From contig OY997641.1 of assembly GCA_963921795.1 (NCBI GenBank), positions 57,998,950 to 58,062,949 of the forward strand: a stretch of 64,000 bases of DNA, written 5' to 3'. Both the position numbers and the translations under genes were made by a program. The DNA comes from Nannobrachium achirus (Eukaryota; Chordata; Actinopteri; Myctophiformes; Myctophidae). Shown here one piece after another: positions 5,372-30,854 of this stretch. Each line of letters begins with the position of its first letter. Positions within the stretch are counted from its first letter, which is position 1. The notes beneath the pieces were generated by a model. That model worked only from the letters and a program-made list of their open reading frames with translations, searched no databases and was not told the origin of the DNA.

Positions 5372-5419
5372 GGCAATATCCTCAGGGTGTCCAATCAAAA
5401 CACCACAAAACTGACATTC

Positions 5420-5527
5420 AAGGAGTAGTTCACCCCCAAAATGACTTATTTTTTCAATGTATTACTCACGCCATGGAGACTTGAGTTCAATAGAAAAAAA
5501 GTCACTTTGGGGGTGAACTACTCCTTT
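5420..5527. mobile_element. short MITE, mirrored copy
   Basis: Reverse complement of 1278-1388, bounded by AAGGAGTAGTTCACCCCCAAA and its complement. It is carried by the right arm, so it was present before the inverted duplication. Confidence 0.8.
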
Positions 5528-6094
5528 AATGAAATGTTTTTCTTCTCTTCACCCACACCAAATGATCACCACTCTGTTTTGTTACACACGTGTGGTTCTA
5601 AAGATGAAAGAAAAATGCAGGGCATTCACAATCCGGCTAATTAAACAACAAACAAATTGGAATTATCAGAAATATTAGTTAGTCGCACGCATACTGTACC
5701 AACAAAACACAGTAAGTCCAAATGGAAAACAAATACACTTGCACTGATCTGAAACATTCTCTCCCAGTGAACTTGACTGACCAGGGAACAAAGACAGACT
5801 GGTGCCACTCATCAAGCAGAAGCCACTGATCAAAAGAAGGCACTAATTGACCACACCTGGCTTGGTGGCCTGAGTGGTGTAGTATAGTGTGTTGACAGCA
5901 AGGCTTATGCAGGCCAACCTACTCTGTCCCTGGCATGTGCGAGGTGCTTGTAGATCTGTGAGGTGCTTGTAGATCTGCTGTATTGGGTTTTTTAACTAGT
6001 TTGAAGTGTTGGTGCCGTGCTGTGACAGCTTGAAGCAGGGATGGCTCCCCACAAACCCAATTGTGATGAAAAATATTTATGAAATAAATAAATG

Positions 6095-6218
<124 letters not shown>

Positions 6219-6544
6219 CAACTGACTTTTATGTAAACCATACTATATGGACAGTTTGTTCTGCATGTCACTATGCTGGAAAGTGTCCTAATCGGGAGAT
6301 AAGCCCTGGGGGTCCCTGGAGGGGTGGAGGTTGTGGATTGGCAGGCAAGGAGTGTGTGTGCAAAGTTTGGCATTGAGTAATATGCTGGCTGTGTACACAT
6401 GTTCACAGCGGCGTCAGTTCAGGAAAGGCTAAGGTATGGCAACATGACTGGTGTCTTGCAAGACACCAATCATGTTGCCATACCTTAGCAACAGGCACGA
6501 TGAAAAGTACATTTAATTATTTCCCCCCTGTAGCCAAGGTATGG

Positions 6545-7514
6545 CAGCTGCCATAGCTTGCCATACCCAATTGACGCCCCTGCATGTTCACCTCCAGTAG
6601 GTTGGGAAAGTAGCCTGCCACCCTGTGGAAATAGGCTTGAACTGCAAGATAGGACCCTAAAACAAATAAAATGGAATAAAAAAGCATCCGTAAGACGGAT
6701 GGGCGAACAAGTGGTGTCCATACGTAGATGGGGTCCCAGAGGACATGTAGAGCCCACCCCCTTATTTTTCACGCCCCCAGGGAACACACAGCGGGGTTTG
6801 GAAATTTGTCGTGTACACCAGCCCTAGGACCTCGGCTTCGTGGACCGATTTAACGATAGGGGTAATAATAATAATAATAATCGTAGGCCTAATAAATACA
6901 TAAAAAAAGAATAAGGATAAACACTTATATGAACGAGCAGCGCGTCCCGCAAGAGCTGGCTTTTGCTGCATTAATTAGGATGTTAATTTCGTTCAATAAC
7001 GTGACGTGAGCAACAAGCCACAGAGAAATTGACAAAACAAACAGATACATGTATAAGCCTGGCAGGGCGTAAGTCAGGATGTACTAATTAATAAAAAATA
7101 AAGAATAGAAAAACAAAAGAATCAACTGAGACAAGAAAAAAAAAAAACGAAGCAAAGAACCACTCTACATGGGGGTAAGTTGCGCTGCGACTTCTTTTGT
7201 GTGACGATAATGACTGTACATACTAGGCCACATGCATGCATATGTAGACCTCCCACATAAGTCACATATAAGCTACACATAGATCCGCATACATGCTACA
7301 TGCATACATAGACTGCACATACATACATTAGACTACATACATACGCAGGCCACACATACATCCGCATACATACAGGCTACATACAGGCTGCATACATTCA
7401 TACCAGCACACACACCCATCCACACATTGTGTGTGTATGTATGTGTGCATACCCGCGTGCATGCACGCACGATGCACACACACATACACACACACATGCA
7501 CACGCAGTGAATAG

Positions 7515-7545: not shown

Positions 7546-8840
7546 GTAGAGGGAGAGTTCGTTACATAGTCAATTCAAGTGTCCCGCACGACCCAACGGA
7601 GCATATAAGGGCCATTCATTACATAATCAATTCTAAGTCTAATTAATGACCCATATGACCCAAGAGAACCGTTGTTTGTATAACATCAGCTCCCAATTTG
7701 AAATGATTAGTTCATTAGTCAGTTAGTGAAACATTCGACTTAGCTTATCATAGGCAGATCCTCATTGTCGTGAAGTAAGCAGAGTGTCCTTATCGCCGTC
7801 TTGTAACTGCTCGCTGCAGTTCGTTGTCTCTGAGAAAGGCATCGATCTCCTCCTTGGAGCGGAATGATTTCTTCTGCCCTTCATGATCAAGAACCAAAGT
7901 GGAAGGGTGGACCACTCCATAGCCGATGTTGTTGTCCTTCAAGACGAGTTTGGCTGCGGAGAACATCTCATTTCTTTTCTTCTGGAGCACTGGTGGAATG
8001 TCGGGGAAGATCATTATTGTTGAATTCTCAAAAATGAGTGTGCCCTTTTCTCTGGAGAGCTGTAGGACTTTCTGCTTTTCTGGGAGCCGGAGGAATCGGA
8101 CCCAGACGGCTCGTGGTGGCTGGCCTTTAGGAGGGGGCTTGGCTGGAGAGCGGTGCGCCGCCTGAAGTTCAATGCGTTTTGGGAGAGTAGACTCAGCTCC
8201 GAGCAGGTTCGAGAAGAATGTCTCAAAGAAGGCCAGCGAGTCAGGGCCCTCTCGGCCCTCAACTAGCCCCCGTACCTTGAGGTTGAACCTTCTGCTTCTG
8301 CTCTCCATTTCTAGGTTCTTCTCTTGTAGTAAAGTGACTTCTTTTTCCAGTTTTTGTAGGCGACATTCATGTAGTGCGACGCGGTCCTCCCCGTCGCTGA
8401 TCCTCTGCTCCGCGGCCTCCACTCTCGTTGTTAAACCTTCCAGTTTTTTGTCCATGGTTGTCACGGTCGCCTGGATTTCATCCACCTTTTTAGCAATGCC
8501 AGTTGAGACCTCAGTCCCGTTCTGTATGGCTTTCATTAAGTCATTTAGGCTTAGTTCTCCTTCTCCAACTTCTCCGGTGCCTGGCATAATGTTTGGGGTG
8601 CGGCGTTTCCTTTGTCTCAGTTGTGTCTCGGCTGGAGTATCTGCGGGTCCTTTACTTCTCAGCCCTCTACTCATTTATCTTTAGTCTTAATTTCAGGTAG
8701 TTTTAGTTCAATTTAAATGTCATCAGTCGTTTTTGAAACAATTTTAAAGCATTGAATAAGTTGATATATTGAGCTTATTGTCGGGAGCTCGGGTTGCGTG
8801 CTGCCACTCTCTAGCACTGCATGCTGGGAAAAAAAAAAAA
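7517..8840 (-). mobile_element. ORF1-only L1-type retrotransposon copy
   Basis: Read on the minus strand: about 160 bp of leader, an intact L1-type ORF1 (8674-7790), about 244 bp of 3' sequence without any reverse-transcriptase coding, and a 28-base poly(A) tail (T tract at about 7518-7545). The organisation matches the half-L1 (HAL1) class known in mammals, which carries ORF1 but no ORF2 and depends on another L1 for movement. The clean tail and open frame suggest a recent insertion. The 5' boundary is set at the 12-base A run (8829-8840) beside GPI exon sequence. I found no convincing target-site duplication. Confidence 0.7.
7790..8674 (-). CDS. L1-type ORF1 protein (RNA-binding chaperone, transposase 22 family)
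   Basis: A 294-residue frame starting MSRGLRSKG. Residues about 45-125 are a heptad-rich coiled coil (KKVDEIQATV, KLEGLTTRVEAAEQRI, RLQKLEKEVTLLQEK). It is followed by the RRM-like domain of L1 ORF1p (NLKVRGLVEGREG) and the C-terminal domain (VWVRFLRLPEKQKVLQLSRE, IFPDIPPVLQKKRNEM). In this family the protein trimerises through the coiled coil, binds RNA and acts as a nucleic-acid chaperone in the L1 ribonucleoprotein. Length is normal for fish and mammalian ORF1p and the frame is open. The basic tail TRRR ends the protein. No ORF2 follows, so it would need a reverse transcriptase supplied in trans. Confidence 0.88.
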   Translation of the reverse strand: MSRGLRSKGPADTPAETQLRQRKRRTPNIMPGTGEVGEGELSLNDLMKAIQNGTEVSTGIAKKVDEIQATVTTMDKKLEGLTTRVEAAEQRISDGEDRVALHECRLQKLEKEVTLLQEKNLEMESRSRRFNLKVRGLVEGREGPDSLAFFETFFSNLLGAESTLPKRIELQAAHRSPAKPPPKGQPPRAVWVRFLRLPEKQKVLQLSREKGTLIFENSTIMIFPDIPPVLQKKRNEMFSAAKLVLKDNNIGYGVVHPSTLVLDHEGQKKSFRSKEEIDAFLRDNELQRAVTRRR

Positions 8841-8841
8841 G

Positions 8842-10396
<1,555 letters not shown>

Positions 10397-10579
10397 CTAT
10401 TAATTTGAACCATTTAGAAAGAGATGCTTACAGTTTGTTCAGTTGCCCACGGGCACTGGATTATAATAGATGAATATAGCAGACAGAGGTACAGTACGTA
10501 TGTTCTCGCATTCAAAATGGTCAGATATCTTCTGCAAATAATGATTAAAAACTATGAGAATCGTTATTGGGTCACTGGG

Positions 10580-10675
10580 GGGGTACCTTAATTGTGCAGG
10601 TCAGCTGATCTCCCTTTCGCTTCCAGAAGGGAAGTATAATGCCCTGCCTCCAGTCATCAGGCAGCGACTCTGTGC
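10580..10675 (-). pseudogene. LINE reverse-transcriptase fragment
   Basis: On the minus strand one frame reads ESLPDDWRQGIILPFWKRKG, then DQLTC. This is the LPxDWxxGxIxPxxKKGD-type motif near the start of non-LTR reverse transcriptases, normally followed by NYRGI, which is missing here. About 32 codons remain. It abuts the first copy of the 310-bp array at 10671. Confidence 0.75.
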
Positions 10676-12022
10676 CTGCTCCACCAGTAACAAATACATT
10701 AAACAGTTCTGGATTCTCTACACGGATTTCTGTAAGTACCAGTTGCGATTTTGTAAAATATATTCTAGTTTTTCAAAAAGGTCAGACTAAGTATTGTGTA
10801 ATAAGAAGTTAAAATATAACATTTAAAAGTATATACATTCAATTTTATTTTTGTAAATACATTACAGTTTCAGTAGTTTTTTGTATTAAATAAGTCATTT
10901 AGTTTAGTTAACCACAATATTTTGAGACAAGAGTATGCTGCATTCGTAATGTATAGCTTTGAGCAAATGTGTCTTACCTGTGCCTGCTCCACTAGTAACA
11001 AATACATTAAACGGTTCTGGATTCTCTCCACGGATTTTCTGTAAGCACCAGTTGCGTATTTTGTAAAAGATATTCTAGTTTTTCAAAAAGGTCAGACTAA
11101 GTATTGTGTAATAAGAAGTTAAAATATAACATTTAAAAGTATATACATTCAGTTTTATTTTTGTAAATACATTACAGTTTCAGTTGTTTTTTGTATTAAA
11201 TAAGTCATTTAGTTTAGTTAACCACAATATTTTGAGACAAGAGTCTGCTGCATTCGTAATGTATAGCTTTGAGCAAATGTGTCTTCCCTGTGCCTGCTCC
11301 ACCAGTAACAAATACATTAAACGGTTCTGGATTCTCTCCACGGATTTTCTGTAAGCACCAGTTGCGTATTTTGTAAAAGATATTCTAGTTTTTCAAAAAG
11401 GTCAGACTAAGTATTGTGTAATAAGAAGTTAAAATATAACATTTAAAAGTATATACATTCAGTTTTATTTTTGTAAATACATTACAGTTTCAGTTGTTTT
11501 TTGTATTAAATAAGTCATTTAGTTTAGTTAACCACAATATTTTGAGACAAGATTCTGCTGCATTCGTAATGTATAGCTTTGAGGAAATGTGTCTTCCTTG
11601 TGCCTGCTCCACCAGTAACAAATACATTAAACGGTTCTGGATTCTCTCCACAGATTTTCTGTAAGCACCAGTTGCGTATTTTGTAAAAGATATTCTAGTT
11701 TTTCAAAAAGGTCAGACTAAGTATTGTGTAATAAGAAGTTAAAATATAACATTTAAAAGTATATACATTCAGTTTTATTTTTGTAAATACATTACAGTTT
11801 CAGTTGTTTTTTGTATTAAATAAGTCATTTAGTTTAGTTAACCACAATATTTTGAGTCAAGAGTCTGCTGCATTCGTAATGTATAGCTTTGAGCAAATGT
11901 GTCTTCCCTGTGCCTGCTCCACCAGTAACAAATACATTAAACGGTTCTGGATTCTCTCCACGGATTTTCTGTAAGCACCAGTTGCGTATTTTGTAAAAGA
12001 TATTCTAGTTTTTCAAAAAGGT
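10671..12022 (-). repeat. 310-bp tandem array containing a Helentron helicase Walker A segment
   Basis: TGTGCCTGCTCCAC starts at 10671, 10979, 11289, 11599 and 11909, giving periods of 308, 310, 310 and 310 bp and about 4.4 units. About 154 bp of each unit (TTTGAGACAAGAGTCTGCTG to GTAAAAGATATT) is nearly identical to 13973-14126, the part of the Helentron frame encoding VFVTGGAGTGKTHLLKA. The remaining 156 bp (CTAGTTTTTCAAAAAGGTC to CCACAATATTT) is not coding in the Helentron. The array ends about 65 bp from the Helentron stop codon. Confidence 0.93.
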
Positions 12023-12086
12023 ATAACATTTCAATTCCAATGTTATTGTGTTAGTTTTAGTGAACTATAAAAACATATTACAGTAG

Positions 12087-15000
12087 TCAAACTATGGAAA
12101 TACGAATGGCTTCGTGAACACTGTAGTAGGCTGGTATTACTTGGACAGATTCGTTTTCAATATCTTTAATGTATACATGGTCAATCAAGGTACCACTCTC
12201 TGTTGTTGCACTTTTTACACATTGTCTGTATTCTTGTTGTTCCATTAAATCTACAAGGGTAGATGTTTTAAACAGATCTTCATTGAAATCTCCCATTATT
12301 ACTTTTCCTCCAGGGTATGAATCCAATTCTTCAACAAGTTTAAGCAAATTTTGGCGAAAGGACTCCATTTTGTATGAATTTGGTCTATACAAAACAGCTA
12401 CTGCCACATCAACTCGTGGAACATAAAAGATCAAACATTCCAAGTTAGAACTTTGTGGTATGATTGTATGAATTGTCTCATCAAAGCGATGATATATTCC
12501 AACTCCACCTCTTGCCTGTTGTTTTAATTGGTCAAACATCGGTTGACTGTTATCATAGCAATTTGATCTTGGATTGTGTTGAAATGTAAAACCTGGTAAA
12601 TCTAGCATCTGTACTGGGTCATCTGACCTTAACCACGTTTCTGTCAAACAAATGCAATTGGCTTTCATTAGCATATGATGTGCTTGAACATCCAGAAAAT
12701 GTGCTTTTAAACCCTGGACATTATGCAAAACTATTGTAAACGCACAACTGCTTGTTGGGGTTTGTTGAGGAATAATGAACTCTGGCATGCTTTTAATTGC
12801 TTTGTCAACTTTGTCGTTGCAAAATATGGCTGAATCCTTAAAATCTTCAATAATGAGGCCACTAAGAGTTCTTACGCGACTTAATGCAACGTATGCTTGT
12901 CCTGCATGATTTACATGTTTCAAAGACACCACAGCATTATCAACTGTTAAACCTTGTACTTTGTGTATTGTGCATCCCCATGCCAATCTCAGAGGAAATT
13001 GCCGTCTTACTCCACCACTATTTGACACATGGTCTGCTTGTGGTTCAATTATCGTAGCATTTTGCCGAGTCTTTGATCTCTGAATTTGTCCAACTTTTGG
13101 ATTATCAAATGCAACATGAATATTAGAGGGAAATGAACTTTCAGGTGAGAGCGTTATGTGGACAACAGTTCCAAAAGCACCATTTACAAGACCATCTGGA
13201 ACATCAATATTCTTCTTGAGAATAACTCTGGCACCTATGCCAAGATGTATAACTTGTGACAAACAAGAGTTATATACTTTTTTATGATGACCAATTTTCA
13301 TTGCCATCCTTCCAGTTTTTGGATTCCTTTCAAAATCTTCAGCCACTATGCTTATCGCATCTGGACACATTCTTGCTAATGTTATAAGGTTGTATGTGTC
13401 AACTTGGTCATTGGTAGCAAATATGTGGATGGCATCGGATTGTTCACCAGTTTCACATTGTTTTATCAAATGTAGATCTTTGTCATTTAATGGTTCTTTC
13501 CTTTTATGTATTCTGAAGCGATTCAGTGTTTGAGCAAAGATTGGATCTTTCTGTCTAACAATCTTAGTCAGCTTTGCAATCGTGAAATTATTCCACAAGT
13601 TAATTCCTGTTCCTTCTGCATATAAAGGTGTACCTTTGACAGGAGGCAACTGATAAAAATCACCTACTGCAATTATACTCACTTTTCCAAAGAGAGAATA
13701 GTCACCAACCTGTTTTATTTGTCTTAATCTTCCATGTATGTAGGCTAGAAGACGATGGTCAACCATAGATATTTCGTCAATTATTAATATTTGTAAATTA
13801 ACCAGTTTGGCACGTAGGGAATTTATTTTGTCATCACCAAGTGGTACGTATGGCAATGTGTTATTAATGCCAATGGAAAAGGTGTTGTGTATGGTTGAAC
13901 TACCAATGTTGTATGCAGCAACACCAGTTGGAGCACATAAAAGAACTGTGATGTCATCAGGATTTACAGAAGTTTGAGACAAGAGTCTGCTGCATTCGTA
14001 ATGTATAGCTTTGAGCAAATGTGTCTTCCCTGTGCCTGCTCCACCAGTAACAAATACATTAAACGGTTCTGGATTCTCTCCACGGATTTTCTGTAAGCAC
14101 CAGTTGCGTATTTTGTAAAAGATATTTGACTGTTCCTCATTTAAAGATCTCATTAGATTTAGTGCTTCTTCTCTACACAGTTGAGCATTATGAGTTTCAA
14201 TGGTGCAAACTTTTTGTGCATTTGTAATCAAATCAGGTATATTTTCATCATTGTTATCATCACCATCATCATCAACTTCATCTTTCCTTGAACTGAGACA
14301 TTCTAGCCTTTCCTTTTCAGATTCAGGACATATTTGAGCCCAAGCATCTTCCAAATCACCAACTTGGTTCAAAAGTTCTTCTGCTTCATCAAGTTTGTCT
14401 GTTTCTTTCTCAAAAAAGGACCTGTTTGTCTCAACAATGGATTTCACTGTCTGTACAGCATTGTCAGCATTTCTCACTGAACCAAGATTGTAAAAGTCTT
14501 CAAATGACTCAAAAGATGGAGGTTTTAACTGAGAATCTTGACGATATGGCAAGAAAAGCTGCAAAATAGATTTATAGTATTTTTCTGGATCTTTTGTTGG
14601 TGTGAATCTCGGATACCTCACCACTGCGACATCTGTTCGTGTGCGTCTTTTCACATATCCCAAATTGTTGTCTAGTTGAATTGTTTCACCTTTAGATGTG
14701 GAAGCCTCTGATTTGGACAGCACTCTGTATTCTGAAACAAATGTAGCAAGGCATAAATATTCAAAGTCTTGAGTTTGTGGTCGGCTTTTATATCGGTCTG
14801 TCTGACTAATCATCCATATGCTTGAGTCATCATCTGTCTCCTGAGAAACTTTGTTCTGCAATTCCTTCAAAGGTTTTGTCATTCTAACCGTATCTCCAAC
14901 AGGAATAAATTGAACTTTGCGAGAACATTCCTTCAAATGCATATTTGTTACTCTGTAAACAGCCTCTTGGGCACTAACTTCTCTATTGTGAAGATAAACA

Positions 15001-18000
15001 GCCCCTAGTTTTTGAAGCGCTTCTTTAGCGTCAAGATTTCCATCTAGACTTTCTTTCTGTGCTCGATCAAGCAACATTCCCATGTTACGTTCAGCTTTTG
15101 ATATGTAGGTGATTATGTACACAACAACAGAGTATGCATCTGTAATAAATTGAATATCCATATTAGCATTCCAACTTGCTAACAAATCCCCGTTGTATTG
15201 ATTTATCCAGGTATCGTTTGGTGAACGTTTCAAAACCACACTCGTTTTGTTAGCGACTCTGTTGTATGCCAATTCAAATATTTCCTGATCAATACCTATG
15301 TCATCAAATAAGTCTTTTGTTGAATCATAACTCATGTCAGGATTTGATAATGCCGTTTTCACTTTTTCAAGGATTTCTATGGCCTGATCTCTTTTTAAGC
15401 AAAACTTATCATCTTCATGATTGGCTGAATTATGCAACTCATCGGCACCGTCAACATCCATGTTTTCTTCTTGTGATGCACCTTTTGTATCATCTGTCTT
15501 TTCAGTCTCCTTTTTCTTTGGTCGGCTAATGAATGTTTGACAAGAAATAGGTCTAGGAAAATTAAATCGACATGTGGTTTTGTTTTTTCTGCACGTCTTT
15601 GAATGTCTAGTGCTATGCTTTTGAACACTATTCACAATCTCATACAGTTTTACATCATCTTTGTCTGGCATCTGACAAGTTACATATGTGTCGACAAATT
15701 CAATAACGTCTTCATCTGAATCTTTATCTATTTGCGGAGCATCTTTAATCCAGAGCAAACCATGGACATGTGGGCTCCCTCTTTGCTGAAATTCGACACG
15801 GTAAAAATAGTCATTTACAAGTCCAACAGGTGCTGCTTTAGATATTAGAAGATCTCTTTTATACTCATGCCATCGATGGTCAAACATCCTTGCTGCCGTA
15901 ACTGGGTTCTGTTTTAGTATGCGACATTTCTCAAACCAATCAAGTCTTTCCACATCAACCTTTTTTCTTTCTTGAAGTACAAGTGTTGCCATCATTTCTG
16001 GCCATCTCATATCTGCAGAACTAAATGAGAAAAACCAGGTAGGAAGACCAAGCTGTCTTAACATTGCAAAAAGATCTTTTTGTACGGACTGCCAAAATGC
16101 CGGACTTCCACGAATATTCCGGAGATATTTGTACCCTTCATCGTAATGTAAGATTTTCCTCAATGATTCAGCATCTGTTAACATATCAGCTGTTATACGC
16201 TTGGGAACCTTTTTGTCAACTCCCTTTCTCATAGCAATAGATACACTATTCACAACTTGTTGAAGTTCAGATATATATTGAGCATAAAATATATAATCTA
16301 TATTGTTTGCAAACCTTCCATCAGCGTTTAAAAGTCTGCTATTTAGGTACTTTGCAAGTGTTATTTTTGTCGGTCTGTCATCATGAAAAGTAGGACCACC
16401 TTTTGGAAACAAAACTGGAAAACATTTAGCTTCATTTGTTTTATCCTTCAGTAGACCAACAGGATTGTTTCCTTCTGCAGGAGCCACTGATATTATACTG
16501 TCAAAATGCTGATCTAAAACATCTTGTGCCAAGTCAACAGGCTGAAGACAAGTATCAAAACATGCTACATTCTGTTGTTCCGTATAGGTTAATTCTTCAT
16601 CGTTTTCTGTTTCATCTCCATTTCCTGCGTCATCTGCATTCTCATTTCCTGCATCATTTGCATTTTCAATTGTTTGTTCTTCCTCAACAACTTCATCAAT
16701 ATCATTAGTTTGACTTAAAGGATTTATCCAGTCTCTATTCATATCTGTGTCAGCATAGAAGCGATTACGTTTATTCAGGTAATGCAAGGCATTTTCTACA
16801 TGATCTGTATGGACATATGCATAATCATAGTGTCCTTTATATGTAATTTTACGTTTCAATTTCATTCTTATCATCATGTCATCACTAGCATTTCTCGGTA
16901 GAACATTTGTCACATGGCTTAAGTTGGAAGGCACGCAAACTACTGGTCCATGGCATCCATTTTGACCTCCTTTTGGCAATGCAACAACTTTCATGAACGG
17001 AATGTGTTTAGCTATCAAATGTTCTTCCAAAACATTGAGACATTTTAGTTCTGGTGGTATTGGTTCAAGATGTAGATTGTTTAACACACTTTGTTCAGGC
17101 ATTTTGCCAGATAATAGTTTTCGATCGCATGTCTTACAAATCCATAGTTTAGCAGCTATTCCTTGTGACATTGCGCAATTAAGTGAACAGTTACTGTCAC
17201 ATGTATGCAAATATGTCTCTGTAATGCATTTGTCTGCTAATAATCCAATATTTTTGTTTTTCTTCACATAGGAAGATTTCTTACATTGACTGACCTGCTT
17301 TCTGAAAAGTTTTCGATGGCAGACACAGCAAACAAATTCAGGGCCTGTACGGACATTTTTTTGGAAAGTTTCAATGGCAACATTAATGTCAACCTGCTTC
17401 GTCTTATTTTCTTTATATTTCTTGCGCAAATTCATATTTTTATCTGCTCGGTACTCTGTGTCAGTAGACAATTTTAACTTTTTGTATTCGCAAACTTTGG
17501 CTCGGAACTCTGCGTCAGTAGCAAATTTGACCTTGCTGTATTCACAAACATCTGCTCGGAACTCTGCATCAGTAGCATATTTGAACTTGCTGTATTCACA
17601 AACATCTGCTCGGAAATCTGCATCAGTAGCATATTTTACCTTGCTGTATTCACAAACATCTGCTCGGAACTCTGCATCAGTAGCATATTTGAACTTGCTG
17701 TATTCACAAACATCTGCTCGGAACTCTGCGTCAGTAGCAAATTTGACCTTGCTGTATTCACAAACATCTGCTCGGAACTCTGCGTCTGTAGCATATTTGA
17801 AATTACTGGATTCAATTTTGTTTGTAGAATAGACTTCATCATTGTGGTATCGGAAATGATCATCGCCAATCTTTTTATGTCTAAACACTTGATCTGTTAT
17901 ATATCTGTCTCTTTCTTTCTCAGTTTTTGACTTCTTGACTCTATCCGTCTTGAAACTTGTATCATGTGACCTTTTTCTTAGTTCCATAGTGCTTTTTTCT

Positions 18001-20747
18001 CCTGCTCCATTGTTACACATGCCTGCACAACAAAATGGATCATCCTTTTTCTTAACACATGTTACAACGTCATAATGATTTCCATTAGTGTTGTTTAAAT
18101 ATACTGCTTGACATCTCTGTACATCTGTAGATGCACGACAACTGGAGAAAATATTCCATATGCCATTATTAAGTGTCATAATAGTTGTTTGCAACAAGTC
18201 AGCAGCTGCAAAGATTTCAAGCTCAGTAGCCCATGTTCCTGAATAATAAATTCTGGATTTAGTCAAGTATTGCTGCATAGATTCATAATCTGCTCTCAAA
18301 TACTGTTGAAATGCTGATGTGTTCTGATTAAGGTGTTTAAATATAGCACGACGGATTTTTAAATGGTTATTTTCATTACCACAGATTGCAAAAGCCAATG
18401 CTCTGAAGAAGCAGTTGCCATCACCTTTGATTTGTTTATTCTCGCAAGGATCACCCATTGGTGTGAAGTCTTTGTTTTGTTCAACAGTTTTGACACTTTC
18501 ATTACGGACATTTAATTGAGAACACAATATGTCTTGATCCACAGATCTAAGCGGCTTGAAAGACAATTTAGGTGTTACGACATCGGTAATGATGACATCT
18601 TGTATTTCACAAGTATCAGAGGTTTTGCCAGAGGTTTTGTCAATGTTTTTGTCAAAGTTTTCAGTTGCATTTGTGGTTTTGTCAGAGTTTTCAGTGGTAT
18701 TTGCCAGGAATTCCCTCTCTCCAAAGGAGAATCCAAGAGGGAATTCCCACTCCTCTCCACGAGGAAATTCCAGCTCCTCTCCACGAGGAAAGTTTTCAGT
18801 TGTATTTGTGGTTTTGTCAGAGTTTTCAGTGGTATTTGCCAGGAATTCCCTCTCTCCAAAGGAGAATCCAAGAGGGAATTCCCACTCCTTTCCACAAGGA
18901 AATTCCAGCTCCTCTCCATGAGGAAATTCCAGCTCCTCTGCAGAAGCATTGATTCCAGTCACATCAAATTGCTCATCAAAAGCATTCAAAGATTGTGCAA
19001 GATTACAGAGGTATCTGTACAATTCTTCAATTCCAGCATGAAATACCAAAACACTTTTTCCTTTTCCATCAACAAGCCCTTTACAATTACGAGCATGGGA
19101 ATCAATTACAGCATACCAGCCATTCTGTCTGACAACTGCACAGGTACTTTCGTTCAAAGTGAACAAACATGCATCAAAGTCTACAAAAACTCTTTGTATT
19201 GCTTCATCCAATGGTAACACAATGTCCTGCAATCCTTCGTCATATTTTGAAATGCAAACTTTACCACAAAAGGTCTTACCATACGTTATCGATATGGACT
19301 TATCACATAGTACATGTCTGCTGGGCAATTCATTAACTTCAACTAATCCACTTGTATGTGCAATTTTACATGTTCGATTCAAAGAAGCATATAATGCATT
19401 ACCATGGTGTAGGATCTCATCAAGGTCCTTTGGTCCCCAGGTAAAGACATTTCTAATTCCACTCATGATTATTGCAGTCAGACTTATTGGGACACATTGC
19501 TTTCCAGCATATGGGTGAAATTGTACATGACCTTGATGGAATGAACCACAAACGAAGGATACTTGGGGGCAATCCGTAGTAGTGTTTTTTAACAAGGTGG
19601 AATCATAAGACTTATGGTTAGTGATACAGCCAGAGAGTTTGTCAGAGTTAATGAGTGTGTCAACATCATGTACTCTGCTAGATGGGTCAATTATCAAAGA
19701 AGGGTTTGGGACATGAACTGTCATACGTGTACTTTTCAACACATCACTGTAGAGTGATCGACTTCGACTAGTATATGCACTTGTACTCGTAGATGGCTTA
19801 TGTTCACAGTATCTTTGCTCCGTTTCATTTATTACAGTTACTTTGACTCCAGTCACATCAAATTGCTCACCAAATGCATGCACAGACTGTGCAAGATTAC
19901 AGATGTTTCTGTACAATTCTGCAATGCCAGCATGATATACCAAAACACTGTTTCCATTTCCATCAACAAGCCCTTCAGAATTACGTGCATGGGAATCAAT
20001 TACAGCAAACCAGCCATTCTTTCTGACAACTGCAAAGGTATTTCCTTTCAAGGTGAACAAACATGCATCAAAGTCCACAAAAACTCTTTGTATTGCTTCA
20101 TCCAGTGGCAAAACCATGTCCTGCAATCCTTCATCATATTCGGAAACACCAACTTCACCACAAAAGGTTTTACCATATGTTATTGATACGGACACATTAT
20201 GCAGTAGATGTCTCTTTGGCAATTCATTAACTTCAACAAATCCACTTCTATGTGCAATTTTACCTGCTCGACTCAAAGAAGCATACAAATCATTTCCATG
20301 CTGTAAGATCTCATCAAGATCCTTTGGTCCCCAGGTAAATATATTTCTGACTTCACTCGTGATTATTGCAGTCAGACTGTTTGTGACACATTGCTTTCCA
20401 GCATATATATGAAATTGTTCATGACCTTGATGGAATGAACCATGAACAAAGGATACTTGGGGGTGATCAATGATACTGCTTTCTATCAAAGTTGAATCCA
20501 AAGACTCATGTTCAGGAGTATAGCCAGAGTTTTTGCTCTTGTCAGAGGTTATGCCAGAGTTTTCTGTAGTATTTGTAGTTTTGTCAGAGTTTTCAGTAGT
20601 TTTTGGGAATTCCCTCTCTCCAAAGGAGAATCCAAGAGGGAATTCCTGCTCCTCTCCGGGAGGGAATTCTAGCTTCTCAGCAGAAGCTCTACTTACCTTA
20701 TTTCTCTTCATGGATTCCTGCTGTTGTCTGCCCTTCTTGCGAGGCAT
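12087..20747 (-). CDS. Helentron (Helitron2-type) Rep-helicase-endonuclease polyprotein with three predicted deubiquitinase domains
   Basis: The uninterrupted frame runs from 20876, but the first sensible start is the ATG at 20747 (MPRKKG). Numbering from 20876, domains run in this order. Two tandem peptidase C76-like domains span about 141-345 and 439-645, with Cys163/Asp294/His296 and Cys461/Asp592/His594. An OTU domain spans about 811-940, with DGNC at 819-822 and His934. Next come 18-residue repeats (1028-1145) and a DUF6570-like Cys-rich part (CVC at 1184-1186, CKTC at 1247-1250). The Helitron Rep domain has HVH at 1703-1705 and the Tyr pair 1920/1924. The Pif1-type helicase has GGAGTGKT at 2278-2285, DE at 2367-2368, and TIHKVQGLT and YVALSR further on. 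The EEP endonuclease has LHNVQGL, GDFN at 2862-2865 and LIDH. The order OTU-Rep-helicase-EEP is that of fish Helentrons, which move by rolling-circle replication. The frame has no internal stop, so the copy may be young. The last EEP motif reads SVH where SDH is usual. Confidence 0.93.
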   Translation of the reverse strand: MPRKKGRQQQESMKRNKVSRASAEKLEFPPGEEQEFPLGFSFGEREFPKTTENSDKTTNTTENSGITSDKSKNSGYTPEHESLDSTLIESSIIDHPQVSFVHGSFHQGHEQFHIYAGKQCVTNSLTAIITSEVRNIFTWGPKDLDEILQHGNDLYASLSRAGKIAHRSGFVEVNELPKRHLLHNVSVSITYGKTFCGEVGVSEYDEGLQDMVLPLDEAIQRVFVDFDACLFTLKGNTFAVVRKNGWFAVIDSHARNSEGLVDGNGNSVLVYHAGIAELYRNICNLAQSVHAFGEQFDVTGVKVTVINETEQRYCEHKPSTSTSAYTSRSRSLYSDVLKSTRMTVHVPNPSLIIDPSSRVHDVDTLINSDKLSGCITNHKSYDSTLLKNTTTDCPQVSFVCGSFHQGHVQFHPYAGKQCVPISLTAIIMSGIRNVFTWGPKDLDEILHHGNALYASLNRTCKIAHTSGLVEVNELPSRHVLCDKSISITYGKTFCGKVCISKYDEGLQDIVLPLDEAIQRVFVDFDACLFTLNESTCAVVRQNGWYAVIDSHARNCKGLVDGKGKSVLVFHAGIEELYRYLCNLAQSLNAFDEQFDVTGINASAEELEFPHGEELEFPCGKEWEFPLGFSFGEREFLANTTENSDKTTNTTENFPRGEELEFPRGEEWEFPLGFSFGEREFLANTTENSDKTTNATENFDKNIDKTSGKTSDTCEIQDVIITDVVTPKLSFKPLRSVDQDILCSQLNVRNESVKTVEQNKDFTPMGDPCENKQIKGDGNCFFRALAFAICGNENNHLKIRRAIFKHLNQNTSAFQQYLRADYESMQQYLTKSRIYYSGTWATELEIFAAADLLQTTIMTLNNGIWNIFSSCRASTDVQRCQAVYLNNTNGNHYDVVTCVKKKDDPFCCAGMCNNGAGEKSTMELRKRSHDTSFKTDRVKKSKTEKERDRYITDQVFRHKKIGDDHFRYHNDEVYSTNKIESSNFKYATDAEFRADVCEYSKVKFATDAEFRADVCEYSKFKYATDAEFRADVCEYSKVKYATDADFRADVCEYSKFKYATDAEFRADVCEYSKVKFATDAEFRAKVCEYKKLKLSTDTEYRADKNMNLRKKYKENKTKQVDINVAIETFQKNVRTGPEFVCCVCHRKLFRKQVSQCKKSSYVKKNKNIGLLADKCITETYLHTCDSNCSLNCAMSQGIAAKLWICKTCDRKLLSGKMPEQSVLNNLHLEPIPPELKCLNVLEEHLIAKHIPFMKVVALPKGGQNGCHGPVVCVPSNLSHVTNVLPRNASDDMMIRMKLKRKITYKGHYDYAYVHTDHVENALHYLNKRNRFYADTDMNRDWINPLSQTNDIDEVVEEEQTIENANDAGNENADDAGNGDETENDEELTYTEQQNVACFDTCLQPVDLAQDVLDQHFDSIISVAPAEGNNPVGLLKDKTNEAKCFPVLFPKGGPTFHDDRPTKITLAKYLNSRLLNADGRFANNIDYIFYAQYISELQQVVNSVSIAMRKGVDKKVPKRITADMLTDAESLRKILHYDEGYKYLRNIRGSPAFWQSVQKDLFAMLRQLGLPTWFFSFSSADMRWPEMMATLVLQERKKVDVERLDWFEKCRILKQNPVTAARMFDHRWHEYKRDLLISKAAPVGLVNDYFYRVEFQQRGSPHVHGLLWIKDAPQIDKDSDEDVIEFVDTYVTCQMPDKDDVKLYEIVNSVQKHSTRHSKTCRKNKTTCRFNFPRPISCQTFISRPKKKETEKTDDTKGASQEENMDVDGADELHNSANHEDDKFCLKRDQAIEILEKVKTALSNPDMSYDSTKDLFDDIGIDQEIFELAYNRVANKTSVVLKRSPNDTWINQYNGDLLASWNANMDIQFITDAYSVVVYIITYISKAERNMGMLLDRAQKESLDGNLDAKEALQKLGAVYLHNREVSAQEAVYRVTNMHLKECSRKVQFIPVGDTVRMTKPLKELQNKVSQETDDDSSIWMISQTDRYKSRPQTQDFEYLCLATFVSEYRVLSKSEASTSKGETIQLDNNLGYVKRRTRTDVAVVRYPRFTPTKDPEKYYKSILQLFLPYRQDSQLKPPSFESFEDFYNLGSVRNADNAVQTVKSIVETNRSFFEKETDKLDEAEELLNQVGDLEDAWAQICPESEKERLECLSSRKDEVDDDGDDNNDENIPDLITNAQKVCTIETHNAQLCREEALNLMRSLNEEQSNIFYKIRNWCLQKIRGENPEPFNVFVTGGAGTGKTHLLKAIHYECSRLLSQTSVNPDDITVLLCAPTGVAAYNIGSSTIHNTFSIGINNTLPYVPLGDDKINSLRAKLVNLQILIIDEISMVDHRLLAYIHGRLRQIKQVGDYSLFGKVSIIAVGDFYQLPPVKGTPLYAEGTGINLWNNFTIAKLTKIVRQKDPIFAQTLNRFRIHKRKEPLNDKDLHLIKQCETGEQSDAIHIFATNDQVDTYNLITLARMCPDAISIVAEDFERNPKTGRMAMKIGHHKKVYNSCLSQVIHLGIGARVILKKNIDVPDGLVNGAFGTVVHITLSPESSFPSNIHVAFDNPKVGQIQRSKTRQNATIIEPQADHVSNSGGVRRQFPLRLAWGCTIHKVQGLTVDNAVVSLKHVNHAGQAYVALSRVRTLSGLIIEDFKDSAIFCNDKVDKAIKSMPEFIIPQQTPTSSCAFTIVLHNVQGLKAHFLDVQAHHMLMKANCICLTETWLRSDDPVQMLDLPGFTFQHNPRSNCYDNSQPMFDQLKQQARGGVGIYHRFDETIHTIIPQSSNLECLIFYVPRVDVAVAVLYRPNSYKMESFRQNLLKLVEELDSYPGGKVIMGDFNEDLFKTSTLVDLMEQQEYRQCVKSATTESGTLIDHVYIKDIENESVQVIPAYYSVHEAIRISIV
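13973..14126 (-). repeat. parent copy of the array segment (helicase Walker A)
   Basis: This 154-bp stretch of the Helentron frame encodes the phosphate-binding loop region and is shared with every unit of the array at 10671-12022. Array copies keep most of the coding sequence, but the frame is interrupted by the 156-bp spacer. Confidence 0.9.
17440..17820 (-). repeat. 54-bp in-frame tandem repeats in the Helentron
   Basis: Six good copies and one diverged copy of a 54-bp unit encode YATDAEFRADVCEYSKVK-type repeats of 18 residues (about residues 1028-1145). The reading frame is kept throughout. The most diverged unit (STDTEYRADKNM) leads into RKKYKENK, a basic stretch typical of the region before the Helitron core, so the repeats look like an expansion of that native segment. 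Confidence 0.92.
18707..18882 (-). repeat. 135-bp in-frame duplication with a nested palindrome
   Basis: Two copies, 135 bp apart (18707 and 18842), encode EEWEFPLGFSFGEREF then LANTTENSDKTTN. Each carries a 41-bp palindrome: GGAATTCCCTCT and AGAGGGAATTCC as outer arms with CTCCAAAGGAG nested inside. The same palindrome occurs at 20606-20645 and 26417-26456. Confidence 0.88.
20697..20747 (-). other. possible alternative exon at the Helentron N terminus
   Basis: The ATG at 20747 is directly preceded by GTTTTTCAG (acceptor-like), and codon 17 of MPRKKGRQQQESMKRNK is followed by GTAAGT at 20696-20691 (a consensus donor). In the paralogous copy at 26624-26505 the same two signals bound coding exon 1 of the SGNH gene. 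The segment could therefore be a genuine exon, either read through into the Helentron frame or spliced elsewhere. Confidence 0.6.
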
Positions 20748-20994
20748 CTGAAAAACATGCATTGACAGTTCAATGAAAGTTTGTACATTTGTATTATACA
20801 AGTATACTAAAAGAACAGTTTGAATAGGCAAGTTAGTGATACTGAATACATGAGTTTGTAACAATATTATAAACAACTTTAATAGACCTCATTGTTTTTA
20901 TTAATGTTCTTAAAAAGGACGAAAAAATTACATTTCAAGTTAATTGATTCTATATATAGATATTGTATACAAATTAGGGGTGTGAAAGAATATT

Positions 20995-21301: not shown

Positions 21302-24300
21302 TTAGGGCTTGTCTGCATGCGGATACTGGTTCCTATCACTGTGCTGTGGACCCATAAGACATCTACATACATCATAACTTGACACCGTGGCACAAAGGAC
21401 ATCACATCTCACAGGCACAGGTCTGTGCAGATTCTTCCGAGGTGATTTTGGAGGACTTGCCTGCATATGGAAACAAAATAACTTTTTCAGGCATGACAAT
21501 GGAAACCCTGTGTGTTGCTTCGCGCATAATTGTGACATTTTGTATGTGTCTAAATTAAATAACACTTGAAAAACAGAGACACTTTGCTTTGAATTTACCT
21601 TGCTGCCCTTTGGACGAGCTGGGCACTCCACAGGGCTGTTCAGGTTGGATGGCTGGAATGCTTCCATAGCATCCAAGACTTTAGGGCTAAACCACACAGG
21701 ATTTCGAGGGATTGAACTCTCTGGTGAGCCGTCCTTTTGTAGAAACAAAGAACAAAAAAGAAAGAAAGAAAAAAGAAAGAAAGGGATTATGATTATTAAA
21801 TGAGCGATAAGTATAAATCCACATGATCCGTTTCTCATTTCTCATGCCGTCTGTCTTTTACTCAAACTCTAGACTGGTTATTATCTCATAGACTATTGTA
21901 TGTAGTTATATCATCAGTCTGCCACTGCCATGCTATAAAAAACCCACAGACACACAGACTTCATGTGTGTCTCTGTTCACTTCATGTCAGCCTGTAAAGT
22001 AGCTATGTATTTGTTACTGTCATTAAAAGTGTCATTACCCGCTTCCAGTTTTTTTCGATTGCTAAAACAAATTTTTCAAAACTGTATGTTTTTTTTCTTC
22101 AAAACTGCACAAACAAAACTCCAAACATTACAAACAAATTGCTAAACCCTGGCATCCCTTTGCAAAACAACTCTTTGCCATCAAATCTGTTAACATGTTC
22201 ACAAAATGGAACTTGTGTTTTCATTTGGTAAACACAGCCATATTTTCACATGACACACACATACCATTCATTGAATAAACACAACTAAGCTTTTGGCTGA
22301 ACACTACCAAGCATGTACAGAACACTGAAGAGCAAAACTGAAAACACAATTGTCGAAATGGAACACCATAAGAATGACCATGGCTCTGGAGAATATAATA
22401 AGATATTTCTCCTTTTGTAAAATGACTCAGTGTAGGCCTACCTTTTTCATAGTCAAACATAAAACAGCACACAAATATGCAGCCAAAACAAGTTTTGATT
22501 TACAGTAAATTAGGCACCATGCCTCTGGTCAGAGATGCATGGGCACAAAAAACAAAAAAAATATATATATATTTTGAAAGAAATTGGTCAGTACTTGGTC
22601 TAATACTGACCAGGATACTGTCACCAAGATACTATCCATATATTTTGAAAGAAATTGGTCAGTACTTGGTCTAATACTGACCAGGATACTGTCACCAAGA
22701 TACTATCCTGGTGTTTGTACCTGTATTTCACTTTCTTTTTTGGTATTTTGTGCCCATCTCTGCCTCCGGTTCCTGTCTCAATGTTCAGTTGTGCAACAAC
22801 TGAACACTCAGAGTGTCAAGAAGGAAAGTCAGAGTTTAAAATGCTAAGGAAATCTAAAGTAGTAACAAATTGAGTCAAAAAACTAACTGCACACTGATTT
22901 GGTTACATCACGGAGAGGAGACACCAGGATGTTGGCTACAACTGTACGTGTGACACAGCATGCTGTCTATTAACGATACTTTCCTACACCAAGACTTCTC
23001 CCCCACTCATTTACACAAAATTGTCAGAAAATAGCAGATCTACAAGCTAACAGACTGTAACGCTAAATGGACTGTATCTTTGTGGAATAGAGCACCTGTT
23101 TGATTCACTAGTCAAAGCTATCTGGGCAGTTGATTGAGAACAATGTTTGCTACTCCTAAATAACACCAAGTCAGTAGAGCACAAACTGGCCCTAACAGTA
23201 AGTATGAAGACGGTTTTAACCTTTTGCTGTTGCTGCTGCTGCTGCTGCTGTAAGACCCAAGCAGACTGCGCAGGACGTACAGGATGTTGCCTCATCTGAA
23301 ATGAGAAATGCAGATTGATGAGTGAAATGTGAATACTAAGGATATGTGATATCAACCTTTGACCATTAACCCATACATCCATCTGTTACTGTCCAATACA
23401 AATATTAACCAATACTGATATATCGTTGTTGTGGGGTGGAATCCTTGTATGTCCACAACTGTTTGTTTTGTATTTATCATTTTTTAAATGATTTAAACTA
23501 CTAAAAAAATTAAGTTCAAGTAAAAATGCTATTTGATTTTTCCAGAAAGCCCAACTGCCATGCAGACATTTGTTTTTATACTAATATCAGCCAATAATAT
23601 CAGACATCCCTACTTAACATAACATAACATAACATAACAGAGTATCCCTTTTTACAAAGCAGTGACAGCATTCATCACTTACCTTCACAGCAGGTGAGCG
23701 TGGTAAGCGCACTTCCCGACTCACAATGACTCTCGGAGACACTGTACGTATTGGTGTTGGTGGAATGAGTGCTGGCTTGGAATGCAACTTCTTGGGAGAC
23801 ACCTACACATACAAAGAGAAACATTTTTACAGACTACAAAATAGGAACCATGTCATTGTACCTTGTATTTATGTAGTTGTAAGATGTGTGGACAAACCTG
23901 TGCTGTCTGTGCTGTACGCTGCAAATCGTTTTTAACAGCCATGTCAATTGCAATTGAGAAAACAGACTGGCCAACAGAATCACTAAGATGAACCTAAGAG
24001 AGACAAAAACAAATGTTTAGAATCCAATAGACATTGTAATATGTCATTAATTCATATGTTATGTTGTGTTCATATCATGTACAAATAATGCATAATCTTC
24101 ATGTGGTTTTTCGAAACAAAGATTACACTTACGTTGTCGCGACACCAAAGTTCAGACTGTGTCAGTGGGAACAGATCTGTGATACCAGTGTATGTCACAC
24201 CTTAAATATAAATAGATCATAGGTGAGATAAGCAACCATCACGTCACATTCACAAACAATATTATTCAAAAATTACCCTACAAAAACAAATATGTTGCTA

Positions 24301-26624
24301 TATACTGTACATGTAGTGTAATACACTAAAACGTGTACCTGGCCTGAAATGGTTAAAAAGGCCTGCAACAACTTGAACCCTTGCATCCCTATTTCTAGGG
24401 AATATTTGTCACAAATATGCTGTGTACAAGCGCACAATGACTGACATTGTTAAATCAACCTAACAACACATTATCTGTTGTGTATGCATTTCCATTACTC
24501 ACCACAGAAATTAGCTGCACTTTTAAAAGCATCACGAAGAGCGTTCTGCTGTCCAATGTTAACATTCAGGCGCGGCGGAAAATCAAGGACGAAAACCTAT
24601 AAAAAACACAAGTGTTGAGTGTCAAAAACAACATCTTCTCAAACTTTGAGAAGCATTAAAAGAAGCACGATAGAAAAAAGTATTGGAAGAAACAACTTAC
24701 ATGTTTCCAGCGCAACAAGGCTGTTTGCAGCAGCCTGCGGAAGTCATCTCCTGCTTGACTCACACTGTGACCACTAATGTCATTACTAGTAGCCAAAATG
24801 CAGACCATGTCCGGCACATGTGGCACGTCAGCGTGTTTCACTTCAAGTTCCAAGTCTGCTGCTTTGGCACCGGGGTATGACATGAAACCAAAGCTGACGT
24901 CAGAGTTGGGCATGTTGATATATCCATCAACAATGGAGCGTAAATGAGAGTCCCCAATTACGACTGCAAACTGTTTCAAGGGAAGAAAAAAACAGAAACA
25001 AATCAATGCTTTTTTGCTTAACAATCACATTCACTCCTCAACAATTAATACACAAGTAAATGAAGGTACCTTCTTCTTTGACAAGTCCGCTGGGAAGACA
25101 CACTTGCACTGCTTTCCTGTCAGCTGTGAAGTTGGCCACTTCCTGACAGAGTGACGTGTGCCTGTGCCACCAGCTGGTAGCTAAAAACACACAGACCGAT
25201 GAAAGATGTGTTCACAGTACATTTTTGCCATTTTGCCAGACATGTTAATCCGAAGTGCTTAGCAGTGATTAGCAGCTAATACATCACTGTCACTACATGA
25301 ACAATCAATATAGATGACGGAAGGGGAATGTTATGTTAGTGTTATGATTTTAGCAGAAGTCTGAAGAGGTGAAACTTCAGTACACAGCAAAAGCTAGGGG
25401 ATGATTCTGTAACTCTAAATGCCACTGCCAGTTGACTCCACAGTTTGCAAGCAGCAGGGAGAACAGTCTAGCCATGATTGAATTTCTGTCCTGGGGTTTT
25501 TTAACTAAAGTTCTGTCACCATCCCTGTGTTGCCTGATTGCACTGAACATGTAGCGTTGTAAGGCTTGATCAAGATTTGCTGAATAAAAGTTTGACACAG
25601 GTGTACTTTGCCTTCATATTGCTCAACCAGGCAAGTGCTCTTTTAAGAGAGAACCAAACGAGCTCAAAACACAACACCAGATATCTGTGAAAACACATGA
25701 ACACAGCCAGAGTGCTTTGTCCTCTGTTCTGTGTAATGTAAAAAAGAAGCACTGTGTAACATACAGTATGATGTGGTGTTTTGACTGCCACAATAATTAA
25801 AATTCTGAAATAGCATACCTGTTCAGCCATTGTAATCTGGCTGCTGGCTCCAGGACACTTGCAAAGGCGAGCCACCTGTTTGATTGAATAATTTATTATA
25901 AGTTTGCATAAGAAACTTTTCCACTGCAAAAGTTATCCTGGAAGTTAATCCATTTCACAACAGAATATTTGCATGACATTATTATGTGATCCCCACAAAT
26001 AAGTCACTGCAGTATACCTTGCGCGCTGGTGAGGAGGAAGGTGTAGATGTTCTTTGTTTTACATCAACCTGGACCAATGGTTGCACAAGGTTTTCCATCT
26101 AAAAGACAAAACACACAAAAAAAGAAAAACATGATGAAATTAACTGTGATACAAAATGACAATATAGAGAACTGACATAAGATGAACACTTTATTAATAC
26201 AAACACTTCAACATTCAGCTGCATACATTTATTTTACTTGGGGGTGATCAATGATACTGCTTTGTATCAAAGTTGAATCCAAAGACTCATGTTCCGGAGT
26301 ATATCCAGAGTTTTTGCCAGACATATTGCCAGAGGTTTTGCCAGAGGTCTTGTCAGAGGTCTTGCCAGAGTTTTCTGTAGTATTTGTGGTTTTGTCAGAG
26401 TTTTCAGTGGTATTTGAGAATTCCCTCTCTCCAAAGGAGAATCCAAGAGGGAATTCCTGCTCCTCTCCACGAGGTTCTAGCTTCTCAGCAGAAGCTCTAC
26501 TTACCATTTGAGCAGAGGGCTCACCCTCATCCTCCTCAGAGGTTTGAGGCGGAAGAGGAATAGGGCAGCTGACCTTTTTCCTCTTCGTGGATTCCCGCTG
26601 TTGTATTCCTTTCTTGCGAGGCAT
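21302..26624 (-). CDS. 12-exon SGNH/GDSL-hydrolase-like gene
   Basis: Exons, 5' to 3': 26624-26505, 26098-26018, 25875-25819, 25180-25070, 24970-24701, 24596-24503, 24200-24133, 23993-23898, 23802-23683, 23295-23221, 21733-21599, 21460-21302 (stop). Every intron begins GT and ends AG, and every junction keeps phase, giving about 461 residues. Exons 5-8 hold the four SGNH blocks: GDSH (Ser131), YPGA (Gly157), ATSND (Asn186) and DNVH (Asp266, His269). Family members hydrolyse esters or act as acetyl-esterases; the substrate here is unknown. Upstream exons are basic and Cys-containing (LTGKQCKCVF). Exon 10 has nine Gln in a row from CAG/CAA. The last exons are Pro-rich. I recall similar uncharacterised multi-copy proteins in other fish genomes, but cannot check. 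Exon 1 and the adjoining intron are shared with the Helentron N-terminal region. Confidence 0.82.
22571..22712. repeat. 71-bp tandem duplication in intron 10
   Basis: TTTTGAAAGAAATTGGTCAG to ACTATCCATATA occurs twice with an exact 71-bp offset. It is flanked by inverted sequences (GAGATGCATGGGCACAAAA near 22530 and TTTTGTGCCCATCTCTGCC near 22748), so it may be the centre of a foldback element of about 22505-22790. Confidence 0.8.
23620..23640. repeat. (AACAT)n short tandem repeat
   Basis: Four to five AACAT pentamers in the intron between SGNH exons 9 and 10. Confidence 0.9.
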
Positions 26625-26760
26625 CTGAAAAACATGCATTGACAGTTCAATGAAAGTTTGTACATTTGTATTATACAAGTATACTAAAAGAACAGTTTGA
26701 ATAGGCAAATTAGTGATACTGAATACATGAGTTTGTAACAATATTACATTTCACATAAGT
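26229..26760 (-). repeat. second copy of the Helentron 5' coding region
   Basis: On the minus strand this matches 20460-20876: the leader (TNLPIQTVLLVYLYNTN in translation), the MPRKKG exon, SRASAEKLE, the EFPLGFSFGEREF palindrome segment, and TPEHESLDSTLIQSSIIDHP, ending at HPQV where the first C76-like domain would begin. It differs by a longer exon 1 (adding the acidic EEDEGEPSAQM part) and additional GKTSGK-type codons. The domain coding itself is absent. Here it forms exon 1 and part of intron 1 of the SGNH gene. Confidence 0.9.
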
Positions 26761-26764
26761 TAAT

Positions 26765-27680
26765 TGATTCTATATATAGATATTGTATACACATGTTGTC
26801 AAACATAAACCCTTCCTAAATCATGTTACTCAATTAAAGCATCACTGGTTCTGATGATTGACATTAATTTATTTTTAGTTTATTAAAAAATAAGCATCTT
26901 GACAATATTAGACTTGCAAAAGATTATTAACTACAAAAGCAAAATATTATTAACCAAGCATAAAAGAACAAATTTGCTTGTTGACACCATTTAATGATTC
27001 CAAAAGGTTTCAAAAGTTGTTTACATTTCACTCTACTTGACTGATAAGTGAAACACAAAATGTAATTCATCACATAAGTGCACTATATCTTCTTACCTGA
27101 TATTTATATTCACGATGAAGGCAGAATAGAAACATGAAGGCAGAATAGAAATATGGGGGAAAAGGAATACAATTATATTAGTTAAATGACTATAGGATTA
27201 CAAAACACAAACTGAATTTGTTTATTGAGAATATTCAACTGATGATTTCAAGTTTAAATAGCAGTATTGATTTCACCATCTACTTGACTGATAATTGATA
27301 CACACAAAAGGTAATTCATCACATAAGTGCACTATATGTTCTTACCTGATATTTAAAGTCACAATGAGTCACAAATGAATGAAGGCAGAATAGACATGAA
27401 AAGAAAAAAGGAATACAATTGATTAGTCATTCACTTTAATGTTAACTGCTTGAGATGAACAACCTGTCATATTACCATTACTGTATAACTGCATGTTGCA
27501 GAACTGAAAAGTAACTATTTTCTGACTGTTTCACTTGATTGTTGCTCATGATATTGTTAACATATTCATTCATTTGATAAAACCAATGTACTTCAATCAT
27601 AATGAAGTGCAGCATAACTAACTAAAAGTAGCAGATGAAAACAAATGACCATAGAAGCAAGACATCTAATAAAACACCAC
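26765..27680. other. AT-rich stretch without a recognised gene
   Basis: It contains two partial direct copies of about 90 bp (CACATAAGTGCACTATAT.TTCTTACCTGATATTTA near 27071 and 27320, each followed by ATGAAGGCAGAATAGA). These look like an ancient local duplication. No coding signal was seen. Confidence 0.5.
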
Positions 27681-30852: not shown

Positions 30853-30854
30853 AA

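Follow-up and report, generated by a model that had tools for sequence, protein, structure and literature searches.

A Helentron protein of the fish Nannobrachium achirus with two tegument-type deubiquitinase domains and one OTU domain, and a probable SGNH-like module on upstream exons

The stretch of DNA considered here, hereafter the window, covers 64,000 nucleotides from the myctophid fish Nannobrachium achirus (assembly GCA_963921795.1, contig OY997641.1, positions 57,998,950 to 58,062,949), and it carries a transposon of the Helentron type. The longest of the 17 open reading frames (ORFs) of at least 150 amino acids in the window spans 2,933 codons from stop to stop (12087..20888). It lies on the minus strand, as does every gene feature given below. 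Within it lies the main coding exon of the Helentron gene (12087..20747), which is stop-free and encodes 2,886 amino acids from an ATG at 20747, in the order VTD-VTD-OTU-DUF6570-Rep-helicase-EEP. Searched as a whole against Pfam, the protein matches in this same order Herpes_teg_N (two stretches, 8.3e-18), OTU (1.2e-8), DUF6570 (1.9e-20), Helitron_like_N (4.9e-30), PIF1 (7e-25) and Exo_endo_phos (1.8e-8). The combination of Rep (HUH), Pif1 helicase and EEP endonuclease within one protein identifies a Helentron, and the best Rep-helicase (RepHel) matches, among the matches listed, are fish proteins with about 61% identity. The layout had been proposed from the letters alone, in what is called here the sequence-only reading, and its coordinates were right: residues 141-345 and 439-645, counted from 20876, are residues 98-302 and 396-602 of the 2,886-residue protein.

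Three deubiquitinase (DUB) domains open this protein. The two VTD/C76 domains are found at 19839..20462 (D1, residues 96-303, catalytic C120, D251 and H253) and at 18948..19568 (D2, residues 394-600, catalytic C418, D549 and H551, with 78% identity to D1), and the OTU deubiquitinase domain lies at 18042..18527 (residues 741-902, with D776, C779 and H891; OTUD3, 4bou, 5e-9). Two C76-like domains and one OTU in a Helentron protein is what the sequence-only reading had claimed. Profile matches and catalytic residues bear this out, as does the structure predicted for D1. Taken alone, D1 scores 40.9 bits and D2 36.6 bits against Herpes_teg_N, both over the Pfam curated cut-off of 25, and the OTU domain scores 39.3 bits against Pfam OTU (curated cut-off 23.3). 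The catalytic Cys and the Asp-x-His of the VTD/C76 family are present in both D1 and D2, and the predicted structure of D1 has the M48USP/8ADD fold, as that reading had expected of these domains. Single-sequence phmmer searches of PDB sequences with D1 and D2 yielded nothing significant (best tegument match of D1 at E 0.56, 8ADD not listed), whereas a profile search of PDB sequences recovers 8ADD. D1, D2 and the OTU would presumably all be active enzymes.

The remainder of the main exon holds an 18-residue tandem repeat, YATDAEFRADVCEYSKFK-like (17448..17804, residues ~982-1100, in a 54-bp array at 17442-17814), followed by the Pfam-defined DUF6570 domain (16725..17108), Helitron_like_N/HUH Rep region (15753..16349, with PHVHG at residues 1659-1663), PIF1 stretch of the PIF1-type helicase (13542..14144) and EEP (Exo_endo_phos) endonuclease (12156..12725). 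The protein also contains HUH, Walker A/B and EEP motifs. Because a 3′ splice-site-like sequence (TGTTTTTCAG, followed at once by the ATG) stands directly before position 20747, the exon that begins there may be an internal or an alternative first exon.

The start-codon region is in fact present twice on the same strand, 5.9 kb apart (26235-26752 and 20454-20875), including the 3′ splice-site-like sequence, and in each copy the start codon is followed at a short distance by a strong donor, GTAAGT. One peptide repeat of low complexity (EFPLGFSFGEREF...TTENSDKTTNTTEN) is seen before the first VTD (20548-20678), between the second VTD and the OTU (18637-18914), and in the upstream copy (26330-26474). 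When fish Helentron proteins serve as tblastn queries, further collinear same-strand pieces appear between that copy and the main ORF, and seven exons are predicted (26624-21599) with AG/GT borders and in phase, giving a 298-residue peptide that continues into the ATG exon at 20747. Exon 1 (26505..26624, MPRKKGIQQ...SAQM) has the GTAAGT donor and its start region is the one duplicated at 20747; its match to the hidden Markov model (HMM) profile is barely there (independent E-value, iE, 1.6), and what speaks for this exon is the duplication together with its splice sites and phase. Exons 2 (25070..25180, LPAGGTGTRH...SKKK, iE 2.2e-14) and 3 (24701..24970, the SGNH block with GDSH, iE 4.2e-40) are backed by HMM, splice sites and tblastn, and exon 4 (24503..24596, VFVLDFPPRL..., iE 1.7e-8) by HMM and a donor. 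Exons 5 (24133..24200, VTYTGIT...WCRDN, iE 2.5e-7), 6 (23898..23993, VHLSDS..., with the catalytic His, iE 2.6e-4) and 7 (21599..21733, DGSPESSIPRNPVWFSP...GSK, iE 1.9e-11) are HMM matches, and the phase of exon 7 fits that of the ATG exon. Model positions 255-313, which in the fish models fall between exons 6 and 7, were not recovered from the window beyond weak matches.

Once spliced, these exons would carry the SGNH blocks GDSH, YPGA, TSND and RDNVH (D-x-x-H), whose key residues are kept in the relatives that cover them. The match to PF13472 reaches 22.4 bits (E 1.9e-4), under the curated cut-off of 32.9, and the module is for that reason called SGNH-like. The peptide matches 25 of the 168 other proteins in the census below at E ≤1e-5 (best 3.6e-66), and these have a VTD in 25 of 25 cases and an OTU in 24 of 25, compared with 120 and 108 of the 168 overall. 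Predicted splicing probably adds an SGNH-like hydrolase (lipase-like) module to the gene; a shorter product that begins at 20747 is just as possible. That the DUBs share one uninterrupted frame with Rep, helicase and EEP, as had been proposed, is true of the ORF, but the gene probably has seven further exons upstream.

Why would tegument-type DUBs, already known from Helentrons, multiply in them and then be inactivated? A census of 169 proteins bears on this question; it is made up of the window protein and the matches of three overlapping searches, run with the VTD-OTU part of the window protein (28 matches), with its Rep-helicase part (best 120 of 960) and with a carp N-terminus (47). Some members of the pool are isoforms or truncated gene models, and the carp query tilts it towards proteins with two VTDs. 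Domains were called with our own VTD and OTU profiles and split matches were merged; P0124 and P0161, in which the HMM had split single VTDs into pieces, were counted as having one VTD each. With V for VTD and O for OTU, the architectures are V-O (61), neither domain (37), V (22), V-V-O (16), O (10), V-O-O (7), V-V-O-O (6), O-V (5) and other (5). Exactly one intact full-length VTD with one intact full-length OTU is found in 77 of the 169, and at least two full-length VTDs in 23, including 14 among the best 120 of 960 from the Rep-helicase search. All VTDs are intact in only five of these 23: the window protein, loach P0044 (which has no OTU), abalone P0085, hagfish P0099 and killifish P0151. 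The hagfish protein has a second VTD-OTU pair near its C-terminus, which may be a fused neighbouring copy. Goldfish P0149 (1,410 amino acids, no RepHel listed) shows a doubled pair of one dead and one intact VTD, and the remaining 17 have at most one intact VTD.

A single RepHel preceded by two intact VTDs and an intact OTU is therefore seen in three of the 169 proteins (the window protein, P0085 and P0151), and such a set of three intact DUBs looks uncommon. The idea that three DUB folds are unique to the window element was rejected: whatever their catalytic state, two VTDs are combined with one OTU or two in other fish proteins and in an abalone protein.

What becomes of the extra copies? 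The triad is not intact in 24 of 130 full-length VTDs. Nineteen of these (18 unique) fall in one clade (support 1.0), three begin at residue 1 of truncated models, and the other two (P0058 and the second VTD of P0138) carry a single change. Dead-clade VTDs sit upstream of another VTD, which is intact in every protein except P0138, and are doubled in goldfish-type proteins; their named carriers are cypriniforms, Astyanax, hake and several percomorphs. A profile built from intact VTDs only recognises all 24 defective domains (dead clade E 7e-29 to 5e-13), and in a control of 480 shuffled sequences, 389 of which gave any alignment, the maximum was 6.0 bits. It is on this profile that homology rests: the carp dead VTD has no match from Pfam or from a profile search of PDB sequences, and its AlphaFold2 model (9 rows) has a pLDDT of 44.2, too low to serve as fold evidence. 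The position of DrT1-VTD2 Glu377 is Asp or Glu in 105 of 106 intact VTDs, and acid-Leu-Pro at this position is found in 0 of 19 dead-clade domains, as far as so divergent a clade can be aligned.

The OTUs have fared in a similar way. Fourteen proteins have two full-length OTUs, and in 13 of them the Cys is missing from one copy, replaced by Ser in 12 and by Gly in 1. Both copies have kept it in the hagfish protein. Since the OTU tree places the dead copies in one clade of 11 (support 0.999, including P0151 and P0142) plus three separate domains (P0073, P0147 and P0153, each Asp-Ser-His), it suggests that the Cys was lost four times. The second OTUs with Ser for Cys resemble substrate-trap mutants made in the laboratory. 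One active enzyme per class, with dead copies retained, looks like the common pattern in multi-copy proteins and would amount to a rule. The window element, in which all three DUBs are intact, is a rare example from nature. Inactive VTDs have been described in insects, and a figure legend names active and inactive domains (PMC9741609); the parts of that article available to us contain no statement of such a rule.

D1 and D2 have another history. In a tree of 126 VTDs they group with each other and with no further domain (support 1.0): theirs is a separate tandem duplication, lineage-specific among the proteins compared, in contrast to the old pair of one dead and one active VTD that other fish carry. 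Between them dN is 0.11-0.12, dS 0.17-0.25 and omega 0.47-0.65 (four methods).

It is reasonably likely, in our judgement, that the window holds a Helentron with an intact main frame in which two VTDs and an OTU precede Rep-helicase-EEP and the DUBs protect the transposition protein. They would remove ubiquitin, of the K48/K63 type as in zebrafish relatives, from this long protein or from proteins bound to it, the transposase itself being the presumed substrate; proteasomal turnover would be prevented, and enough of the giant protein would survive. The available text of Erven et al. already suggests that VTDs may block the proteasomal degradation of transposition proteins (PMC9741609). A role in self-protection or in counter-defence is what we infer. 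Several observations weigh against this reading. Neither terminal inverted repeats nor an insertion site were identified for the element, and its flanks share no convincing inverted repeat, the comparison of 26700-33000 with 8600-12090 for exact inverted words of at least 13 nt returning a single AT-rich 13-mer. The 37 of 169 proteins without VTD and OTU, a figure inflated by truncated gene models, imply that DUBs are not strictly required. Finally, D1 and D2 differ by 46 amino-acid changes against 51.4 ± 3.7 expected under neutrality, a value as low being reached in 9.8% of 1,000 simulations, and the counts alone give no clear sign that purifying selection has acted since the domains were duplicated.

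This last count also feeds a different view, somewhat doubtful yet compatible with protection by the active copies, namely that only one VTD and the OTU matter and that the second VTD, a near-neutral duplicate, is turning into a pseudo-DUB, as the 17 of 23 multi-VTD proteins with at most one intact VTD and the 13 of 14 two-OTU proteins with a Cys-less copy would lead one to expect. The domains themselves argue otherwise: of 34 strongly conserved positions D1 retains 31 and D2 30, which is the level of intact VTDs (median 31) and far from that of the 19 dead-clade domains (10-15), and the differences between D1 and D2 steer clear of the columns that the family conserves (mean conservation 0.388 against 0.487 ± 0.030; 3 of 10,000 permutations as extreme). 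The suggestion that three modules point to selection is hence weakly supported by evidence that is mixed, the avoidance of conserved columns speaking for it, and the change count, together with the habit of most relatives with extra copies to retain at most one intact copy per class, against it. The main rival, which we consider rather unlikely, has the DUBs acting in trans on host ubiquitin signalling (germline silencing, DNA-damage response) in place of protecting the transposase. Herpesviral tegument DUBs do target host factors, and Erven et al. speculate on overcoming a male-germline limit to transposon inheritance, so far as the accessible text goes (PMC9741609), but DUBs that share one frame with the transposase are more likely to act locally. 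Processing of a polyprotein, the DUB folds cutting the giant protein into functional parts, is improbable indeed: some viral DUBs do so (PMC9741609, in part), and cleavage into Rep, helicase and endonuclease subunits has been named as a possible OTU role in the portion of PMC4067079 available, yet the Helitron VTDs tested cleaved ubiquitin and partly NEDD8 substrates (PMC9741609).

The surroundings of the element show further features. A 24-nt hairpin lies downstream of the stop codon (12023-12046), and directly behind it a 310-bp unit is repeated 4.4 times (10670-12022). Each of its four full copies includes 154 bp that are 97-100% identical to the helicase P-loop region of the element itself (13973-14126). 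A short way beyond the Helentron on its downstream side, an ORF at 9911-10396 (minus strand) strongly matches phosphoglucose isomerase (Pfam, 2.7e-22) and is either a host gene exon or a captured fragment. Mirror-ordered repeats in 1-6700 (e.g. 566-716 with 6066-6213, and 1835-1941 with 4860-4966) suggest a large inverted repeat of several kb, and 33000-63000 is apparently a segmental tandem array, with tandem pairs of ~447 bp at 33085, 38225, 43308, 52219 and 61917 and of 165 bp at 35000, 40068 and 48766. Rfam and tRNA scans of the window gave no matches.

The upstream exons bring to mind the texim genes of fish, SGNH (GDSL2) genes of several exons that have a Helitron coding region immediately 3′ of them or inside their last intron; according to the consulted parts of their description, texim was undetected in zebrafish, teximY is expressed in late spermatids, and gene capture was inferred (PMC4021074). 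This position and domain fit the window exons. We propose that texim, known here by description, is probably the N-terminal part of the Helentron gene. None of the titles and abstract openings listed by literature searches on Helitrons and texim describes it as such, and further papers mention both (PMC7643365, PMC6825717, PMC9025612, PMC7599744). If the SGNH-like exons truly join the RepHel message, a "captured" fish testis gene would turn out to belong to the protein of the transposon itself. Two lines of work on male-germline genes tied to transposons, one on teximY in fish and one on the VTD genes expressed in the male germline of flies and nematodes (Erven et al., PMC9741609, as far as available), would then concern the same element. 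All this can be drawn together, quite tentatively, as a ubiquitin toolkit of fish Helentrons: one active VTD and OTU would be kept and the extras become pseudo-DUBs, the upstream VTD having lost Cys, His and the ubiquitin-tail acid, and the second OTU its Cys, nearly always to Ser and apparently in four lineages. The retained dead copies would possibly be natural ubiquitin traps, the SGNH-like/texim module would belong to the same protein, to which the male-germline genes would trace and which would do its work in the male germline, and the window element would represent the stage after VTD duplication and before one copy dies.

The central idea of the sequence-only reading, tegument-type DUBs in Helentrons, is already known. 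In the available text of Erven et al. (2022, PMC9741609), DUB activity is shown for VTDs of zebrafish Helentrons (three VTDs, K48/K63 chains preferred), one element has two VTDs, and 121 Helitrons have VTD and OTU; OTU in Helentrons was known earlier (PMC4067079, PMC6431247, both in part). New here are the rare set of three intact DUBs, the lineage-specific D1/D2 duplication and the predicted in-frame SGNH-like upstream exons, whose function we infer. In texim (PMC4021074, as described in the parts consulted) a multi-exon SGNH gene likewise lies beside or around a Helitron coding region, such exons lying at 21.6-26.6 kb in the window; there it is a captured separate gene, whereas the window exons join the RepHel frame in phase. 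Zebrafish DrT1 has no OTU and DrT2 has one active VTD (PMC9741609, same text), unlike the window protein with its two intact VTDs and intact OTU. The herpesvirus large tegument DUB M48USP (2J7Q) is 17% identical to D1, and the window domains stand in tandem within a transposon protein. Nothobranchius furzeri P0151 and Haliotis rufescens P0085 have, like the window protein, two intact VTDs and then an intact OTU in a RepHel protein: P0151 shares the SGNH-like module but has a second OTU with Ser for Cys, and the VTDs of P0085 stem from a separate, very recent duplication, distinct from that of D1 and D2.
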